DNA of 64,000 bases from IMG/VR virus record IMGVR_UViG_3300046373_000059, positions 1 through 64,000 of that record; one strand, given 5' to 3'. This DNA comes from a virus. Both the position numbers and the translations under genes were made by a program. Shown piece by piece: positions 44,563 through 51,165 of the stretch. Position 1 is the stretch's first letter. Each line of letters opens with the position of its first letter. A model generated the notes under the pieces. The model searched no databases. It was not told where the DNA came from and saw only the letters and a list, made by a program, of their open reading frames with translations.

Positions 44563-44676
44563 TCGCTATATGGGGGTTTCCTCATACCCTTCGCGGGCGC
44601 GGCTGCTGGATGACCAGTCCAGCCCTACCATCCAGCAGGTCAAAGCCGGATGTAGAGGACAAACCCCATATAGCGA
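44563..44676. repeat. 114-bp inverted-repeat element in the divergent region
   Basis: TCGCTATAT (44563-44571) pairs with ATATAGCGA (44668-44676), GGGGGTTT (44572-44579) with AAACCCC (44661-44667, one bulged G), and CCTC (44580-44583) with GAGG (44655-44658). Inside, CTGCTGGATG (44603-44612) pairs perfectly with CATCCAGCAG (44629-44638). On either strand it would form a long branched hairpin. It lies in the leader of the leftward late operon. It may be a regulatory RNA, an attenuator or a mobile-element remnant; no target duplication is visible. Confidence 0.7.
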
Positions 44677-44689
44677 CAAAATAAACGAT

Positions 44690-45221
44690 TGCGCGGGCCT
44701 GTAGGTTCCCAGGTGTCAGGCGGTCGTAACGCTTTCGTTATCCCGCGCTTATCGCCTTGTACTCGCTTGGCACTGGCCTTCCCCCGCAGGTTGCACCAGC
44801 TCGTCCGCTTTCCAAGTGAGGCAGCTCAGGCCATCATCGCCACGCCCCCACAGCAAGCGAAGATGGGCGTTCCTGAGCCGCCTCACTTGCCGCCTCGTGA
44901 GAGGCAACAAGCGGGGAGTCTAATTCCTCCCTGCCATAAAGGCTCGTTTCCAGATTTTCGGAAGGGACTCCCGGCCCTTGCTTACTCGATTGTGTCCGCC
45001 TTCCGGTACGTGTTGCATGTAGGTGCCGGATTCTTTCCATCCGGCGTAAGTCACGGCATATGCCTTCCGTCCTCGGCACGAACCCGGCATTTTCGTTCAT
45101 AGCTACAGGTCTGCATAAGCAATCCCGAGTGCGTCACGCCTAATGATCCTTCGTCGTTCTTTCCTGTTGCAATTCTTGCCGGTCTTACCCGGCTCAGTCC
45201 CTAGCATGAGGCAGCTTTTTT
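44690..45221 (+). ncRNA. candidate large structured RNA
   Basis: No convincing reading frame, but many helices. CAAGTGAGGC-A-GCTCAGG (44813-44830) pairs with CCTGAGC-C-GCCTCACTTG (44872-44889), an 18-base arm with one mismatch. GCCTC-GTGA-GAGGC (44892-44905) has a GNRA tetraloop only on the plus strand. GCCGGAT pairs with ATCCGGC (45025-45045), GCCGG with CCGGC (45178-45193), and GTAACG-CTTT-CGTTAT also lies in the first part. A weak stem plus TTTTTT at 45216-45221 could end the RNA. It resembles in style the large ornate RNAs of phages (ROOL, GOLLD), but I cannot match a consensus. Confidence 0.5.
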
Positions 45222-45647
45222 AGCACATTGCACGGAGCCAAACCGCGCTTGGACATGATCGAGCAAGTTTGGCCCACCTATCTGGTGGCTGCCGCTGCGC
45301 CATTTCCGGCTGGCTCTTGCTCGACGGATTCCATTTTACATGAGCTGCGGCAGGTATTTTCCAGCGCTTCTGCTGCGTGGCTGCAACACAACAGGTTGTA
45401 TATACGACTTTCTTACGGTATCCGTGAAAATAGTCCTTGAACTACCGCTTTCCGTAACCTATGCTGGCATTAAGTTCTAGCGAACGAGTTGCTTCCAGCA
45501 GAAAGAAATGGCCTCGGCCCTACATCACCGCCTCGCTAGATACGAAAAAGAAAGCACGAACGGGCCACACAACGCTGGCCTGCGGTTCCAGGCTGATCCC
45601 TGGGTCAAGCACCGATGTGAAGCACGCGAAATATCGAAACACCACAT
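45222..45647 (+). other. leader region without convincing gene
   Basis: Two frames stay open here for 60-85 codons, but neither has a ribosome binding site or protein-like composition. The region holds the predicted promoter at 45437-45465 and the untranslated leader of the rightward operon. Nothing else is supported. Confidence 0.6.
45437..45465 (+). promoter_or_regulatory. predicted promoter of the rightward operon
   Basis: TTGAAC (45437-45442), 17-base spacer, TATGCT (45460-45465): four of six consensus bases in each box with ideal spacing. Transcription would start near 45472, giving a leader of about 240 bases that includes pseudoknot copy A. Visual prediction only. Confidence 0.4.
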
Positions 45648-45706
45648 ACAGCTTCAGTTGCTGCCTCGTGACAGGGGGCAGCTCCGGGCGCTGTGCCTGC
45701 AAGGAG
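45648..45706 (+). promoter_or_regulatory. pseudoknot RNA element, copy A
   Basis: P1: ACAGC (45648-45652) with GCUGU (45690-45694). P2: GCUGCC (45660-45665) with GGCAGC (45677-45682). P3: CGGG (45685-45688) with CCUG (45696-45699). The linker is UUCAG instead of CCAGC. GGAG at 45703-45706 is the ribosome binding site of the first gene. The only copy without an upstream gene. Confidence 0.75.
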
Positions 45707-45711
45707 AAATC

Positions 45712-46080
45712 ATGAAACACTTATGGGAAGTGAAACACAGTTACTACTGCCAGGAAGGTAACTACTTCAGCAATCACTGCCACTTTGAATATAAAAGCTG
45801 GCAAGACTTCATCGACGAAATGGGCGATGCTGACATGGATTACAACCTGATCTACCGCTGGGACTGGAAAGAAGAAGCGGATGACGATGGGAAGTCAACA
45901 TTCAATGGCGACGTGAATTACCGCAATGGCAAACTCATGCTGTTCTATATGGGACAGCGGAAAGCCAAGGCGACAAGCTGCGAAGTAGACGTATGCCGCG
46001 CAGACGAGGACGCCATCATCGCGTTCATGAAGCCACACTGGCAATACATGCTTGCCTTGTGGTCGCCGCTTGCAGAATAA
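45712..46080 (+). CDS. first gene of the rightward operon, unknown 122-aa protein
   Basis: ATG at 45712, five bases after AAGGAGA. The product is acidic and aromatic-rich (HLWEVKHSYYCQEGNYFSNHCHFEYKSW, then 'YRWDWKEEADDDG'), probably a small alpha/beta protein; no membrane segment. Its TAA is followed immediately by pseudoknot copy B. Upstream in-frame codons exist but have no ribosome binding site. Function unknown; early-expressed host-takeover role is possible from position only. Confidence 0.75.
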   Translation: MKHLWEVKHSYYCQEGNYFSNHCHFEYKSWQDFIDEMGDADMDYNLIYRWDWKEEADDDGKSTFNGDVNYRNGKLMLFYMGQRKAKATSCEVDVCRADEDAIIAFMKPHWQYMLALWSPLAE

Positions 46081-46143
46081 ACAGCTCCAGCCATAGCGCC
46101 CCACCACGGACGCTATTACGGGCGCTGTGCCCTCTTACCGGAG
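46081..46143 (+). promoter_or_regulatory. pseudoknot RNA element, copy B
   Basis: P1: ACAGC (46081-46085) with GCUGU (46124-46128). Linker UCCAGCC. P2: AUAGCG (46093-46098) with CGCUAU (46111-46116). P3: GGG (46120-46122) with CCC (46130-46132). GGAG at 46140-46143. The element starts on the base after the upstream stop codon. Confidence 0.85.
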
Positions 46144-46149
46144 AAAATC

Positions 46150-46425
46150 ATGTCATCCTGGACTCCCCCACCAAACCACTGGAACCCCATCGGGCACTTC
46201 TACTCGATCATCCCGATGTATGAAGGCGACCTGTACAAGTATCAGGGCATCGCCACGGAAGGCAACATCAGCCATCTGCGCGAGATATTCCCTGATGGCG
46301 TGCTGTCGTCGGACTACATCGCTGACCGTGTGAAGCGTGGCGAGTTCGAGCTGCGCGGCGAGCTGGTCGCAGAGAACATCGTCGATACCGAAGGCGCCAG
46401 CAGCCTTCCAGGCTACCTCAGATAG
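46150..46425 (+). CDS. unknown 91-aa protein
   Basis: CCGGAG ribosome binding site. Sequence is mixed: WTPPPNHWNPIGHFYSIIPMYEG, then helical GNISHLREIFPDGVLSSDYIADRVKRGEFEL. Framed by copies B and C. Function unknown. Confidence 0.7.
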   Translation: MSSWTPPPNHWNPIGHFYSIIPMYEGDLYKYQGIATEGNISHLREIFPDGVLSSDYIADRVKRGEFELRGELVAENIVDTEGASSLPGYLR

Positions 46426-46478
46426 CACCAGCAGATGCCCCGCGTGCGAGGCATCTACGGGTCTTATCCCGGATGGAG
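46421..46478 (+). promoter_or_regulatory. pseudoknot RNA element, copy C
   Basis: P1: AUAG (46422-46425, including the UAG stop) with UUAU (46064+400-403, i.e. 46464-46467). Linker CACCAGC. P2: AGAUGCC (46433-46439) with GGCAUCU (46450-46456), seven pairs. P3: CGGG (46458-46461) with CCCG (46468-46471). GGAG at 46475-46478. Confidence 0.85.
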
Positions 46479-46485
46479 AATTATC

Positions 46486-46626
46486 ATGAACGCGATCCGC
46501 AGCAAGATCGCCGCAGTCGAGCACCACATCATCTTCGCTATATGGGGGATGCTGCCCGTGTCGGCCAAGGGAGCGGTCTACACCTTCTGGCGAGCACATC
46601 GCCGCAATCACTGTTTCAAAAAATAG
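46486..46626 (+). CDS. 46-aa protein with hydrophobic centre
   Basis: Start at 46486 follows GGATGGAG. Amphipathic helix (IRSKIAAVEHHIIFAIWGML) and basic end (RAHRRNHCFKK). It contains the 13-mer TCGCTATATGGGG (46535-46547), which forces a rare ATA codon. Membrane association is likely but not certain. Confidence 0.6.
   Translation: MNAIRSKIAAVEHHIIFAIWGMLPVSAKGAVYTFWRAHRRNHCFKK
46535..46547 (+). repeat. third copy of TCGCTATATGGGG
   Basis: The same 13 bases form both arms of the inverted repeat at 44563-44676 (one arm on each strand). The match here lies inside a gene. About 0.002 further copies would be expected by chance in 64 kb. It may be a promoter or protein-binding site. Confidence 0.5.
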
Positions 46627-46636
46627 GAGCCTTATC

Positions 46637-46840
46637 ATGGAATCGACTATCAACGGCCACACCACGAAAGAGGAACTGAATCGTGGCAATATCTTCCCCT
46701 ACATGGTGTACGCCTACCAGCGCGGCGACGTGATGAAACACGGCATCGTCAAGCCTAACGGCCAAGTCATCGAAGGCTTTGCCACGCACGAAGCTGCTGA
46801 AGCCTTCGCCCTGAGCCTGAAGCTCGCAGCAGGCGGCTGA
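46637..46840 (+). CDS. 67-aa hypothetical protein
   Basis: AGGAG in the upstream stop region, ten bases after the stop. Compact alpha/beta (NIFPYMVYAYQRGDVMKHGIVKPNGQVIEGFATHEAAEAFALSL). No pseudoknot element precedes it, so it shares a cassette with the 46-aa gene. Function unknown. Confidence 0.65.
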   Translation: MESTINGHTTKEELNRGNIFPYMVYAYQRGDVMKHGIVKPNGQVIEGFATHEAAEAFALSLKLAAGG

Positions 46841-46841
46841 C

Positions 46842-47024
46842 ATGGACAGCCACAATGAACTGATGCCCTACCCTGACCTTCCCACTCCCACGCTGGAAGA
46901 GGGGCAAAGCCACGGCGTCATCCTGTCGGGCGAACTGATCTACCTGGGCCAATCGCGCGACGTGGCCCGCCTGATCCTGAATTCCATCAGCTTCCCGATG
47001 GTCAGTATCGGCAATCTGAATTAA
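46842..47024 (+). CDS. 60-aa hypothetical protein
   Basis: One base after the previous stop. Pro-rich start (YPDLPTPTLEEG), then GVILSGELIYLGQSRDVARLILNSISF. Its TAA is the beginning of copy D. Function unknown. Confidence 0.6.
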   Translation: MDSHNELMPYPDLPTPTLEEGQSHGVILSGELIYLGQSRDVARLILNSISFPMVSIGNLN

Positions 47025-47073
47025 AGCTCCAGCTACAGCGCCCGCCTGGACGCTGTTACGGGCGCTTTTCCCG
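47023..47073 (+). promoter_or_regulatory. pseudoknot RNA element, copy D
   Basis: P1: AAAGC (47023-47027, including two bases of the stop) with GCUUU (47064-47068). Linker UCCAGCU. P2: ACAGCG (47035-47040) with CGCUGU (47051-47056). P3: CGGG (47059-47062) with CCCG (47070-47073). Unlike the other copies it is followed by 85 bases before the next start, and no GGAG lies directly behind it. Confidence 0.85.
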
Positions 47074-47158
47074 GTAATGGCCTGCATCAGCCATCACAGA
47101 ATGACGCATCGCATGGGCATCCGCCCCCTTCCAATCCCCCCACTTTCAAGAGGTAGTT

Positions 47159-47374
47159 ATGCCCCATCCATCCATCCGCGCCGTCCTGGTGCGCCTGCGT
47201 CACAAGGCCCACGAAATCGGCCACGTCGTTTGCCATAAAGGCGAACACTTGTTCCACTCCGCTTACCTCGGCATCGTGTCCGTCGAGGCACACGGGTTTT
47301 ACCGCTACGCGGCTGGCGTCACGCTGTTCTTTATCGTGGCGGACTTCCTGCTGTCGTTCGCTAAGGAGGCATGA
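47159..47374 (+). CDS. 71-aa membrane protein
   Basis: AGAGGT seven bases upstream of the start. His/basic N-terminus (HKAHEIGHVVCHKGEHLFHSAY) and one membrane segment (YAAGVTLFFIVADFLLSF). The 85-base gap before it has no convincing gene, although one frame is open for about 53 codons. Function unknown. Confidence 0.6.
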   Translation: MPHPSIRAVLVRLRHKAHEIGHVVCHKGEHLFHSAYLGIVSVEAHGFYRYAAGVTLFFIVADFLLSFAKEA

Positions 47375-47523
47375 TGCTTGCCATCCTTAAATCGCCGCAC
47401 GTCAAGCGCGTGCTGGTGCTGAAGGCCATCGTTGCGACCGGCCTTACGCTGTCCCACTTCTTCCCGCAGCAAGTCGCGCATGTGGCCTTCCTGACCAACA
47501 TGCTGTGGCTCCTGGCCTTCTAA
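47371..47523 (+). CDS. 50-aa membrane protein
   Basis: Start overlaps the previous stop by four bases, with AAGGAGG upstream. Two hydrophobic stretches (VLVLKAIVATGLTL and VAFLTNMLWLLAF). Ends at TAA, where copy E begins. Function unknown; a small membrane hairpin. Confidence 0.6.
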   Translation: MMLAILKSPHVKRVLVLKAIVATGLTLSHFFPQQVAHVAFLTNMLWLLAF

Positions 47524-47593
47524 AGCTCCAGCTACTGCGCAGCGCCTCCCTCACGGTGCTGCGCAGTGTCGGGCGCTTTGCCCTTAACCGGAG
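47522..47593 (+). promoter_or_regulatory. pseudoknot RNA element, copy E
   Basis: P1: AAAGC (47522-47526) with GCUUU (47575-47579). Linker UCCAGCUA. P2: CUGCGCAGC (47535-47543) with GCUGCGCAG (47558-47566), nine pairs. P3: GGG (47571-47573) with CCC (47581-47583). GGAG at 47590-47593. Confidence 0.87.
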
Positions 47594-47599
47594 AAAACC

Positions 47600-47728
47600 A
47601 TGAAGCAAATTATCCCGAAGGTATGTCGGGCTGCACGCTGCAAAGCGGACAGTTTCCTGATTAAAGTCGCCGCCGCTTATGTCGTCTTTGTGGCCCTGGT
47701 CATGATCTTCAACGACTCGGACGGCTGA
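47600..47728 (+). CDS. 42-aa single-pass membrane protein
   Basis: Directly follows copy E. Basic, Cys-containing N-terminus (PKVCRAARCKADS) and one membrane helix (VAAAYVVFVALVMIF). One base separates it from the DoxX-like gene, so the two probably form a cassette. Function unknown. Confidence 0.6.
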   Translation: MKQIIPKVCRAARCKADSFLIKVAAAYVVFVALVMIFNDSDG

Positions 47729-47729
47729 C

Positions 47730-48191
47730 ATGGACATCCTCAACATCGCGGCCCACGGCCTGCTTGCCCCGGATGCAGCTCTTGCCTTGACGCGGCTCTG
47801 CGTCGGCACGTTCTTCGCCATATCCGGCTTCAACAAACTCTTCAACGTCGGGCGCCATAACTCGCTGACGGCGAACCTGCGCAAGAATCACATCCCTGCG
47901 CTGGGCTTTATGCAATGGTGGGTTCCCGGCTGGGAATTCGCATCCGGCGTGATGCTCGCCATCGGCCTGCTGTCTGCCTTCAATGCTGGCGTGCTGATGA
48001 TTATCTGCGTCGTCGCCTGCTGCTGCGAAGCGAAGGCTAAGGTGGCGGCCTACCATCCGATCAATCGCGGCGATTGGGTAGCCGATTGGCTCTACCTGCC
48101 AGAAGTGCTCTACCTGTTCCTGCTGGCCGTCATCGTCCTGGCTGGCACAGGCCAGTACAGCATCGACGCGCTGATCTTCCCGCTGTCCTGA
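47730..48191 (+). CDS. DoxX-like membrane protein
   Basis: 153 residues with four predicted membrane segments. The start RLCVGTFFAISGFNKLFN (22-39) matches the DoxX signature (R-x3-G-x2-F-x4-G-x2-K). Further segments are WEFASGVMLAIGLLS, NAGVLMIICVVACCCEA and YLFLLAVIVLAGTG. DoxX proteins are membrane partners in sulphur or redox metabolism; one in a phage operon is unusual and suggests alteration of host membrane physiology. Ends at TGA, where copy F begins. Confidence 0.75.
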   Translation: MDILNIAAHGLLAPDAALALTRLCVGTFFAISGFNKLFNVGRHNSLTANLRKNHIPALGFMQWWVPGWEFASGVMLAIGLLSAFNAGVLMIICVVACCCEAKAKVAAYHPINRGDWVADWLYLPEVLYLFLLAVIVLAGTGQYSIDALIFPLS

Positions 48192-48250
48192 CAGTACCAG
48201 CCGTAGCGCCGTGACAGGGCGCTACCACGGGGATTGTCCCGCTTTTGGAG
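48191..48250 (+). promoter_or_regulatory. pseudoknot RNA element, copy F
   Basis: P1: ACAGU (48191-48195) with AUUGU (48233-48237), one G-U. Linker ACCAGCC. P2: GUAGCGCC (48203-48210) with GGCGCUAC (48218-48225), eight pairs. P3: CGGG (48228-48231) with CCCG (48238-48241). GGAG at 48247-48250. Confidence 0.87.
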
Positions 48251-48256
48251 TAGACC

Positions 48257-48454
48257 ATGAAATCCGTATCCATCACGATGAACCCCCGCGCACATACGGT
48301 GCAGATGCGGGCCAATAACGAGCCGGTGATAACGCTGTCCTTCGCCGGTCGAAGTGAGGCCGATGTCAAGGACGCGCTGCTGTCCCTGGCATCGCTCGCG
48401 TTCAAGAAGTTGAACGAATTTCCAGTTGAAGAAGTCCCGGCGTTTGCTGGCTGA
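48257..48454 (+). CDS. 65-aa hypothetical protein
   Basis: TTGGAG six bases before the start. Beta strand then helix (SVSITMNPRAHTVQMRANNEPVITLSFAGRSEADVKDALLSLASLAFKKL). Heads a cassette of three genes. Function unknown. Confidence 0.65.
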   Translation: MKSVSITMNPRAHTVQMRANNEPVITLSFAGRSEADVKDALLSLASLAFKKLNEFPVEEVPAFAG

Positions 48455-48488
48455 TCCATCACCCCTGACCCCCACCAAGGAGAACGAA

Positions 48489-48761
48489 ATGGCTACGAAA
48501 ACCTGCTACATGAATATCTATCGCAGCGGCTGGTTTCACCGCGAAGGCAAACCCAATACCTTAGACCGCCACGCTGGCGATCTGTACGATTCACGCGAAC
48601 AGGCCGTGGCCGACATCGACCCGCCGTCGCACTACATTGCCACGGTGGCTGTCCAGTGGGAAGACCCGGAGGACATCGTTGCAAATCCCGCCGACAGCGT
48701 GCCAGTCGCCCTGTCGGTATCCCGCAAACGCTTCCGTGAAACCGAAGGAGTAGCAGCATGA
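48489..48761 (+). CDS. 90-aa hypothetical protein
   Basis: Start at 48489 after AAGGAG; the longer in-frame extension has no ribosome binding site. Sequence: YMNIYRSGWFHREGKPNTLDRHAGDLYDSREQAVADIDPPSHYIATVAVQWED. ATGA overlap with the next gene. Function unknown. Confidence 0.65.
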   Translation: MATKTCYMNIYRSGWFHREGKPNTLDRHAGDLYDSREQAVADIDPPSHYIATVAVQWEDPEDIVANPADSVPVALSVSRKRFRETEGVAA

Positions 48762-48955
48762 TCGACGACCTCGACCAGTACCGAAACCGGCTCAAGGGTT
48801 TTGACTGGTATTTCGCTTACGCTGACGACGATGGCGAGTATCGCCGTGGCAAGCGTGAGCACGAAGAGCTGGCCGAAGCGCAGAAGCGCCTCGATCCAAG
48901 TGGCGCAATCTGGAACGAATACAGCCCACTTGGCTACAGCATACGCCGCAAATGA
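48758..48955 (+). CDS. 65-aa acidic protein
   Basis: Coupled by ATGA. Aromatic and acidic (FDWYFAYADDDGEYRRGKREHEELAEAQKRLDP). Its TGA starts copy G. Function unknown. Confidence 0.6.
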   Translation: MIDDLDQYRNRLKGFDWYFAYADDDGEYRRGKREHEELAEAQKRLDPSGAIWNEYSPLGYSIRRK

Positions 48956-49020
48956 CAGCACCAGCTAATGCCTCGCTTCGGCGGGGCATTGTCGGGGATT
49001 GTCCCGGTTCACATAAGGAG
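48955..49020 (+). promoter_or_regulatory. pseudoknot RNA element, copy G
   Basis: P1: ACAG (48955-48958) with UUGU (48999-49002). Linker ACCAGCU. P2: AAUGCCUCGC (48967-48976), loop UUCG, GCGGGGCAUU (48981-48990): ten pairs with a C(UUCG)G tetraloop. P3: CGGG (48993-48996) with CCCG (49003-49006). GGAG at 49017-49020. Confidence 0.87.
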
Positions 49021-49027
49021 AATAATC

Positions 49028-49834
49028 ATGACATCGCATATCCGCTCGCGCACGTTTGACTGGACAGTAACGAAAGCCGTGGACGGCTGGAAGCCTAACT
49101 GCTGTCCTAATTTCGATCCAGGCTTGGCCCACGTCGTCGCACATGACATGATCGAGCACCTGGACGACAGGTCTGCATTCGATGGCGAGCTGCGCGCCTT
49201 CGGCGTCACGATGTACGGGCGTATGCACGAAAGCCCGCATAAAATGTACGAAGCCAGCGCCAGCGATTTGAGTGTCTTCCTGGCCCTGCAAAACTACAAT
49301 GTGCCGAAGCCGCCAAGCAAGCTGGCAAACAAACCGCTCGATGAAATTGGCGAGCATATGCTGCGCCGCCTGTTGCGCGAAACGGAAATTAATTCCGCCA
49401 GCCCCCACGCTCTGACGAGCCGTAACGACAACAGGAAACTCTTCACTGACGCCGAAAAATTCCGCAGCGTAGTCGATGACGTGCGCGGCTGGATTCGCAT
49501 CGGATACCGCGTGGCAGCGCGCCGGTATAAGAAGCTCGGCCACGAAGGTCTGGATCATCTGTTTGGCAAGCTGGCCGATGCCATCATTGCCGATGCGCGC
49601 AACGAATTCCCCAAGCCTGGGGATACGCTGAAGATTGATCTTGACCTGAAAACGTTCAAGTTCACGCTGGAACGCGGCCAGCTTCAGCCAGCGCAAATCC
49701 TCAAGGCAGAAGCTGCGGCCCGCGTGGCTGATCCTGATTACGACAAGCCGCGCCACCATCGCAGCCCACATCAGCAAGAGCTGGACGAAATCCTGCGCCA
49801 GATTTTCGGCGGCGCAGCAGCTTTTCCAAACTAA
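49028..49834 (+). CDS. unknown 268-aa protein, largest of the rightward operon
   Basis: ATG at 49028 follows AAGGAG. Alpha/beta N-terminus (RTFDWTVTKAVDGWKP), a His-rich stretch (LAHVVAHDMIEHLDD), a helical core (LDEIGEHMLRRLLRETEI) and a basic, His-rich C-terminus (YDKPRHHRSPHQQELDE). No recognised domain. Its TAA starts copy H. Function unknown. Confidence 0.7.
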   Translation: MTSHIRSRTFDWTVTKAVDGWKPNCCPNFDPGLAHVVAHDMIEHLDDRSAFDGELRAFGVTMYGRMHESPHKMYEASASDLSVFLALQNYNVPKPPSKLANKPLDEIGEHMLRRLLRETEINSASPHALTSRNDNRKLFTDAEKFRSVVDDVRGWIRIGYRVAARRYKKLGHEGLDHLFGKLADAIIADARNEFPKPGDTLKIDLDLKTFKFTLERGQLQPAQILKAEAAARVADPDYDKPRHHRSPHQQELDEILRQIFGGAAAFPN

Positions 49835-49895
49835 AGCTCCAGCTACAGCCCATCCCCGTGGGCTGTTACGGGCGCTTTGACCCGCAACGAAGGAG
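49833..49895 (+). promoter_or_regulatory. pseudoknot RNA element, copy H
   Basis: P1: AAAGC (49833-49837) with GCUUU (49874-49878). Linker UCCAGCU. P2: ACAGCCCA (49845-49852) with UGGGCUGU (49859-49866), eight pairs. P3: CGGG (49869-49872) with CCCG (49881-49884). GGAG at 49892-49895. Confidence 0.87.
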
Positions 49896-49902
49896 AAACA
49901 TC

Positions 49903-50193
49903 ATGGCAATCTTAAACTGGAAGGTCAGCAAGGCAGACGGCAAGCTGATTAAAGCGATAGCAGAACGGGCCGTGAAGCTGTACACGAATCATGGCGCCGA
50001 CCTGGATCAGCAGGATGTTGAAATGAGCATCACGGCTACCCACAACAACGGCACGCCGCTGCGCCTGCAAGAGCTGCTGGACGCGGACGACTTCAATCTG
50101 TCGCACGACGTTGGCGGCATGATCCGGCACATTAACCACGACACAGGCAAGCTCGAAAATTTCTTCGTGCCACGCTTTGCCGTTCGCCAGTGA
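49903..50193 (+). CDS. 96-aa phage protein, unknown function
   Basis: Start at 49903, seven bases after AAGGAGA. Sequence (ILNWKVSKADGKLIKAIAERAVKLY, ATHNNGTPLRLQELLDADDFNLSHDVGGMIRHI) belongs to a small-protein type seen in several phages; I cannot give a reliable family name. Function unknown. Confidence 0.7.
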   Translation: MAILNWKVSKADGKLIKAIAERAVKLYTNHGADLDQQDVEMSITATHNNGTPLRLQELLDADDFNLSHDVGGMIRHINHDTGKLENFFVPRFAVRQ

Positions 50194-50200
50194 GGACATC

Positions 50201-50491
50201 ATGAGCGACCACAGAAAACCTAAGCCCGAAGTAGTCATCAGCTTCGCGCCCGTCGATAAGCGCATCGACATCACGGACGACTGGTACGAGCAACAGCTCA
50301 AGCTGCGCGCCGTCCACGAAGCGGCGCCGTTCCTGCTGGCGGCGCTGGAGCGGATGGTGAAGCTGCATCGGCTGATGGCGAAGGATATGAATTGGGGCGC
50401 AAGCGCGCTCCAGGCCGAAACCATCATGGAAATGAACGAGGCGCCAAGTCAGGCAATCGGCGCCATCAAGCGCGCAGGGGGCAAGGTATGA
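50201..50491 (+). CDS. 96-aa hypothetical protein
   Basis: Start at 50201, just after GAGGA. N-terminal strand region (KPEVVISFAPVDKRIDI), then helical (LKLRAVHEAAPFLLAALERMVKLHRLM). Overlaps the clamp-like gene by four bases. Function unknown. Confidence 0.65.
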   Translation: MSDHRKPKPEVVISFAPVDKRIDITDDWYEQQLKLRAVHEAAPFLLAALERMVKLHRLMAKDMNWGASALQAETIMEMNEAPSQAIGAIKRAGGKV

Positions 50492-51099
50492 GCTACGAAA
50501 TCCTGAAGCGCGACATGGCCGCCATGCTGCATATCGCAGCGAAGCAGGACATCCGCTGGTACTTGAACGGCGTGCTCCTGGAAATCGGCAAGACGGAAGG
50601 CCGTCTGGTCGCCACGAACGGGCACATCATGGGCGTGCTCAAACTTTACGGCACTGGCGACATAGCACCTGGGCAATACATCATCCCGCGTGATGTGATT
50701 GAGTTTTTCAAGCCCACAAGGGATGGCTCAAACAAAGTCTTCCTGTCGCACGACGGCCCAGGCAATTTGTGGTCGATGTTCGATCCCTATACGCGGGTAA
50801 CGAAGACCTTTGAAATGATCGACGCGAAGTTCCCCGACTACACCAGGGTGATGTCAGACAAACTGGTAAGCGGTACGGCTGCGCAGCTTGACGTTACATA
50901 TCTGGTGGCGTTCCAGAAGGCCAACATCATGTTGACCGGCAAGCGCCAATTCAACCAGCTCTATATTGGTCACGACAAGTCCCGCGCTGTAGTCAATTTC
51001 GATGATGGACGCTTTACCGGCGTCATCATGGGAATGCGGAAAGATAACAACGAAAGTTTCTACAACACGCCAGCATGGGCAACACGACATGCCGACTGA
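50488..51099 (+). CDS. DNA polymerase III beta-clamp-like protein (short)
   Basis: 203 residues, about half of a bacterial beta clamp. Clamp-like segments are IAAKQDIRWYLNGVLLEI (16-33), RLVATNGHIMGVLKL (38-52), GQYIIPRDVIEFFKP (60-74) and EMIDAKFPDYTRVM (111-124), the last matching the conserved 'Y-P-x-Y' loop before the third strand set. It probably forms a ring or partial ring that tethers a host polymerase to phage DNA, or interferes with the host clamp. Start at 50488 overlaps the upstream stop. The TGA starts copy I. Confidence 0.7.
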   Translation: MSYEILKRDMAAMLHIAAKQDIRWYLNGVLLEIGKTEGRLVATNGHIMGVLKLYGTGDIAPGQYIIPRDVIEFFKPTRDGSNKVFLSHDGPGNLWSMFDPYTRVTKTFEMIDAKFPDYTRVMSDKLVSGTAAQLDVTYLVAFQKANIMLTGKRQFNQLYIGHDKSRAVVNFDDGRFTGVIMGMRKDNNESFYNTPAWATRHAD

Positions 51100-51165
51100 A
51101 AGGGCCAGCGTATGCGTCTTCGGGCGCATACACGGGAGCCTTTCCCGATAACCCCACTGAAGGAG
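51099..51165 (+). promoter_or_regulatory. pseudoknot RNA element, copy I
   Basis: P1: AAAGG(G)C (51099-51105, one bulged G) with GCCUUU (51138-51143), six pairs. Linker CCAGC. P2: GUAUGCGUC (51110-51118), loop UUCG, GGCGCAUAC (51123-51131), nine pairs with a C(UUCG)G tetraloop. P3: CGGG (51133-51136) with CCCG (51144-51147). GGAG at 51162-51165. Confidence 0.87.

Follow-up and report, generated by a model that had tools for sequence, protein, structure and literature searches.

In the 5′ untranslated regions (5′-UTRs) of two type I toxin mRNAs, tisB of Escherichia coli and timP of Salmonella, a pseudoknot lies 5′ of the ribosome-binding site; it is needed for loading of the 30S subunit and protein S1 in tisB (PMC7708055), and in timP it is needed for translation even when the Shine-Dalgarno sequence is open (PMC11228461). 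The T4 gene 32 translational operator, likewise a pseudoknot that precedes a gene in a phage mRNA, serves one gene, is bound by that gene's own product, gp32, and is located 67 nucleotides (nt) 5′ of the start codon (PMC3014915). The put RNA of phage HK022, a structured RNA of phage transcripts which acts in cis without a phage protein and suppresses termination by binding the β′ zinc-binding domain of RNA polymerase, has about 70 nt folded into two stem-loops with a triple helix and lies near early promoters without being tied to stop codons. The intercistronic RNase III sites between the operon genes of T7 are long hairpins without a pseudoknot. Here we describe a pseudoknotted RNA element that occurs nine times in a rightward operon of a 64,000-nt stretch of viral DNA (hereafter the window), which is part of the 64,959-base IMG/VR record IMGVR_UViG_3300046373_000059. 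Whereas the tisB and timP pseudoknots are single, bacterial, confined to 5′-UTRs, of other topologies and without a link to stop codons, this element is multi-copy, intercistronic and phage-borne and has no sequence relation to them; in contrast to the gene 32 operator, it is associated with many unrelated genes and has no protein in common among its carriers. We propose, with a probability of roughly 0.4, that it is a cis-acting pseudoknot that acts on translation at the stop/start junction via the host ribosome.

In the element (about 50 nt), a strand, P1, forms 4-5 base pairs (bp) with loop bases of P3, a GGG/CCC hairpin; the other parts are a CCAG linker and an inserted hairpin, P2, whose sequence varies. 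In our alignment A1 the three helices occupy columns 4-7/56-59 (P1), 14-23/39-49 (P2) and 50-53/60-63 (P3). The P3 loop contains two unpaired purine-rich bases followed by four P1-pairing bases that directly abut CCC, from which we infer a geometry of the loop-loop kissing helix type rather than that of a classical H-type knot. The linker and the stem of P3 hardly vary across the alignment, which would fit contacts between the two. Conserved unpaired bases are few (CCAG and the purine-rich pair in the loop), and the alignment has no conserved base immediately outside either end of the element. A small, pseudoknotted RNA with a strictly conserved linker that is carried by phages could also be a self-cleaving ribozyme with cleavage sites at the gene junctions of phage mRNAs. 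In topology, its strand order corresponds to a circularly permuted pistol ribozyme, which likewise combines a loop-strand pseudoknot with an extra hairpin. However, the conserved catalytic core of pistol is not found in the element, nor is that of any known class, the ribozyme families of Rfam are unmatched, and the scarcity of conserved unpaired bases within the element and their absence directly outside its ends also speak against catalysis, so that we regard a ribozyme as very unlikely. More generally, nothing in Rfam 15 matched at the gathering cut-off in the whole window or in 12 carrier loci, and weak E-value matches were unrelated chance matches, in agreement with the original prediction, made from the window alone, which could name no described family with this layout. 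We found no paper in the open literature that describes this RNA, although a published catalogue might list the motif as uncharacterised. Most likely, the element has not been described before and takes part in phage gene expression by way of the host's own machinery.

Homologues of the element are widespread among phages. DNA pattern searches identified a 66-kb sister phage, L016, with about 85% identity across the operon, and a far more distant 8-kb contig with one element (L019), and looser patterns revealed a large family. A covariance model built from 56 members gave 106 matches at a cut-off of E ≤ 0.01 (model E-values are rough, and contigs are often partial). The matches come from 74 sources, which besides the window and a single bacterial metagenome-assembled genome comprise about 70 further viral contigs from IMG/VR with the same pseudoknot. 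Most contigs carry a single copy and carriers usually have one to four, with nine model matches each in the window and its sister phage. In a pattern scan of GTDB species genomes, a single contig carried the element, with two copies in what appears to be a prophage region of a Proteobacteria assembly; 766 other genomes from that assembly's class and order (368 + 398, with possible overlap) had none. The element is therefore essentially a phage feature that is nearly absent from bacteria. Neither blastn of a family member against annotated phages, which returned only chance matches, nor a search of annotated phage and plasmid collections yielded a close DNA relative, of the element and of the window, respectively.

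Because nine paralogous copies are by themselves weak evidence of covariation, we used the homologues as an independent test of the claim that the fold has been selected. We found that the structure is under selection as RNA and that its pseudoknot is real: the homologues keep P1 and P3 together, and their P1 pairing and covariation exceed those of shuffles. Standard pairs fill 90.8% of all pair cells in alignment A1, a share that drops to about 40% when the partners are slid by 1-3 columns. P1 cells are paired in 97.8% of cases, with 17 double-changed cells compared to 2.4 in shuffles (0/500), and real P1 partners pair in 75 of 80 copies, compared to 46.3 ± 2.6 when the partners are dealt among copies (maximum 57 in 2000 deals). 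Under an R-scape-style tree-based null, five P2 pairs reached E = 0 and the best pair outside P2 was the second P1 pair (E = 0.05 over 1653 column pairs), while the third P1 pair was weak by itself (E = 6.4); P3 shows little covariation of its own because it is nearly invariant. As our early, looser scans had fixed parts of P1, two further scans that left the P1 strand free and demanded a different loop base were run as a check for bias. Most of their matches were chance, but among those with a P2 hairpin and the junction context, seven show the predicted compensating change: ACUG or ACUA with AAUAGU/AAUGGU (L052, L116, L147 and L176), AAAG with UUUU (L053 and L216), and AGAA with UUUU (L212). 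L207 is partly compensated and L187 is not. In addition, an internal U-U mismatch is present in L029 (2578) and L116 (1456), and L031 (4016) has a wholly different P1 of five pairs, UAGUG/CAUUA. Replacing the last loop base (U59) matched 17 contigs, none of them element-like.

The position of the element is locked to stop and start codons. An upstream stop codon is present in 98 of the 106 copies; the first P1 base is the last base of that codon in 60 of these 98, and the offset lies between -3 and +4 in 94. UGA is used at 67 of the 98 element junctions compared to a background of 52% in the same phages (p = 0.002). In the few copies that lack an upstream stop codon (copy A of the window and copy A of L016), the start codon keeps its correct spacing, and in 100 of the 106 copies overall a start codon lies 3′ of CCC at a median distance of 19 nt (interquartile range 18-23). 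Most ordinary junctions between same-strand genes of these phages are shorter, and their gaps are scattered around a median of 6 nt. Thus, as in the standby sites for S1 and 30S of tisB and timP, a covarying P1/P3 pseudoknot is found upstream of a ribosome-binding site. The genes on both sides vary and are mostly of unknown function, which speaks against linkage to a specific gene. We also discarded a role in stop read-through or frameshifting, given that P2 indels are not multiples of three, the stop register varies and no slippery heptamer was seen, as well as an intrinsic terminator, since P3 is followed by GAC..AGGAG-type sequence and not by a U tract. Put-like antitermination, in which the RNA would act on RNA polymerase, had been suggested in the original prediction and would suit a structured phage RNA without an obvious protein partner. 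In contrast to put RNA, however, the element is a three-helix pseudoknot that lies 3′ of stop codons in the middle of operons and not near promoters; most contigs carry one copy, terminator-like sites did not exceed shuffles and none fell on an element, and there was no excess of promoters, which makes this explanation extremely improbable.

With the stop codon in the A site, a ribosome covers about 10 nt of downstream mRNA, and P1 and the linker together span 10 nt (A4-G13). A ribosome terminating at the stop codon would thus cover P1 and the linker, so that the knot could form only when no ribosome is present there. In the mechanism we propose, the edge of the terminating ribosome would lie at the foot of P2 and the knot would be held open; after departure of the ribosome, P1 would pair with the P3 loop and the knot would refold. 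The folded knot might then dock a new 30S subunit, assisted by S1 as in the tisB and timP mRNAs, on the Shine-Dalgarno sequence a few nt 3′ of P3. Alternatively, the folded knot might gate 30S loading instead of promoting it, and the effect on the next gene could accordingly be positive or negative; in both versions the element would depend on the ribosome. Several points weigh against a role in translation. The Shine-Dalgarno sequence is not conserved as a part of the structure, and we looked for its sequestration without finding a consistent signal in computed folds (median unpaired probability 0.49), so that the sequence reveals no switch mechanism. Moreover, the strict placement at stop codons could be partly due to the compactness of phage genomes, and a role in mRNA decay would lead to a similar placement.

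The strongest rival is mRNA processing or protection, in which the element would be a host endonuclease site or a block to 3′-5′ exonucleases that separates or protects cistrons, comparable to the RNase III hairpins of T7. This would fit an intercistronic, compact structure that directly follows the stop codon in those 98 copies, has no phage-encoded partner and is present several times per operon in the window. Against it, the start codon follows at a fixed short distance in nearly all copies (100 of 106), copies at operon ends are rare, a classical RNase III site would need a longer helix than the roughly 9 bp of P2, and no conserved single-stranded cleavage motif lies beside the element. 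Translational control and RNA processing had both been suggested in the original prediction; of the two, the position of the element favours translation, and we consider processing or protection unlikely. One copy without a nearby downstream start codon, at 7341-7397 of L035, is possibly located at an operon end.

To look for a phage-encoded partner, we compared the proteins of 13 carrier phages all-against-all using BLAST. No protein family was present in more than 6 of the 13, the commonest being a helicase, although very small, divergent proteins could escape BLAST and some of the contigs are partial. The KTSC protein, which the original prediction had named as a candidate, is too restricted for this role, as it is confined to the sister phage and one prophage-bearing Proteobacteria assembly. 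The absence of a protein common to the carriers suggests that the partner is host-encoded or that there is none, and host machinery is more likely than a phage protein. A binding site for a phage regulatory protein has a precedent in T4, where gp32 binds a leader pseudoknot (PMC3014915), and multiple copies could make up a regulon; given that no cognate protein of this type was found across the carriers, within the limits of BLAST and partial contigs, and that KTSC is so restricted, we consider it improbable. More tentatively, and with some doubt, we suggest that the element represents a phage-specific class of RNA that couples termination to initiation at the next gene by means of a stop-embedded pseudoknot read by the host ribosome, and that serves as an interchangeable part in unrelated phages. 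The data give good support to a structured RNA family that Rfam lacks, that is spread across unrelated phages and that is nearly absent from bacteria. Since the two ends of the element fall on one gene's stop codon and on the ribosome-binding site of the gene that follows, the per-gene output of polycistronic phage mRNAs can be directly tested with one short part; if the element does tune or insulate the translation of neighbouring genes, it would be a compact natural part for operons.

A comparison of the window with its sister phage shows that gene 1 of the operon together with one element, and the gene after element F (48257-48454), were cleanly gained or lost beside elements. These events raise the possibility that the element marks a cassette boundary at the DNA level and that its RNA fold is incidental to such a recombination site. 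Against this, G-U is the most frequent pair type at the last P1 pair (39/56), and such frequent G-U pairs in P1, together with the strand-specific orientation, argue for action as sense-strand RNA; in addition, the copies share little contiguous sequence and the breakpoints are at the Shine-Dalgarno sequence or ATG, not inside the element. We therefore hold a cassette boundary to be quite improbable.

In the window, structural and replication genes (terminase, portal, primase and helicase) point leftward, and the rightward operon of small genes begins at about 45.7 kb. A descriptor requiring at least 4 P1 pairs, CCAG with at most one mismatch, at least 6 P2 pairs and GGG/CCC matched exactly nine places on the plus strand, all within 45648-51147, and one on the minus strand; dinucleotide-shuffled versions of the window gave 1.19 matches per strand (maximum 5 on one strand). 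The covariance model, which was built afterwards, recovers exactly the same nine, A-I. The copies predicted at nine gene junctions are thus all present, with P1 pairings as originally given, except that P1 of C begins one base later, at 46422 instead of 46421, and that D, although between genes, has no tight, well-placed gene start (the next is at 47159). All are on the plus strand. Copy A (45648-45699, 48.7 bits), the operon leader copy, lacks an upstream stop codon and has P1 ACAGC at 45648-45652, followed by the linker and P2, and a P3 made of CGGG (45685-45688), the loop CGCUGUG and CCUG. B (46081-46132, 46.0 bits), with ACAGC/GCUGU as in A, lies immediately 3′ of the UAA of gene 1, and C (46422-46471, 52.0 bits; AUAG/UUAU) has a UAG stop within P1. 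D (47023-47073, 48.8 bits), E (47522-47583, 43.4 bits) and H (49833-49884, 44.0 bits) share AAAGC/GCUUU and overlap a UAA. In F (48191-48241, 64.7 bits; ACAGU/AUUGU), G (48955-49006, 62.2 bits; ACAG/UUGU) and I (51099-51147, 48.4 bits; AAAGG/CCUUU), the last base of a UGA is the first A of the element. The linker is CCAGC in eight copies, as predicted, and UUCAG in A; C(UUCG)G loops close P2 in G and I, and the predicted range of 6-10 P2 pairs holds except in E, which has 14 contiguous pairs.

Gene 1 (45712-46080, plus strand), which is absent along with one element from the sister phage, belongs to PHROG 7880, of unknown function; a search with its protein found no close viral relative, and the relatives that did appear, in Vibrio, Gordonia and other phages, were distant. 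A DoxX-like membrane protein is encoded within the operon between E and F (47730-48191, plus strand), and a homologue lies near the single element of L019. Between H and I is a DnaN-like gene of PHROG 3007 (50488-51099, plus strand). The divergent operons are separated by about 1 kb (44700-45640), 5′ of element A, with no convincing gene.

Some further features of the sequence were observed. About 20 P2 hairpins that differ in other respects (for example in window copies A and F, L111 and L041) have the same loop, GUGACAG, which contains the UGACAG with which the element itself starts. Kissing between the P2 and P3 loops was rejected, with complementarity not in excess (5/80 vs 6.6 shuffled). 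The consensus CCAGC...GCGG(G)AA (A1 columns 10-14 and 49-55), in which pairing is conceivable between the invariant G13 and C50, resembles the 530 loop of 16S rRNA (GCCAGCAGCCGCGGUAA), which is also stem-enclosed; the resemblance may be due to chance. Finally, two long palindromic inserts, at 44563-44676 of the window and at 1757-1873 of the reverse complement of L016, share their ends (TCGCTATA...TATAGCGA) and differ in their interior, and the latter sits in the 3′ part of element D of L016.

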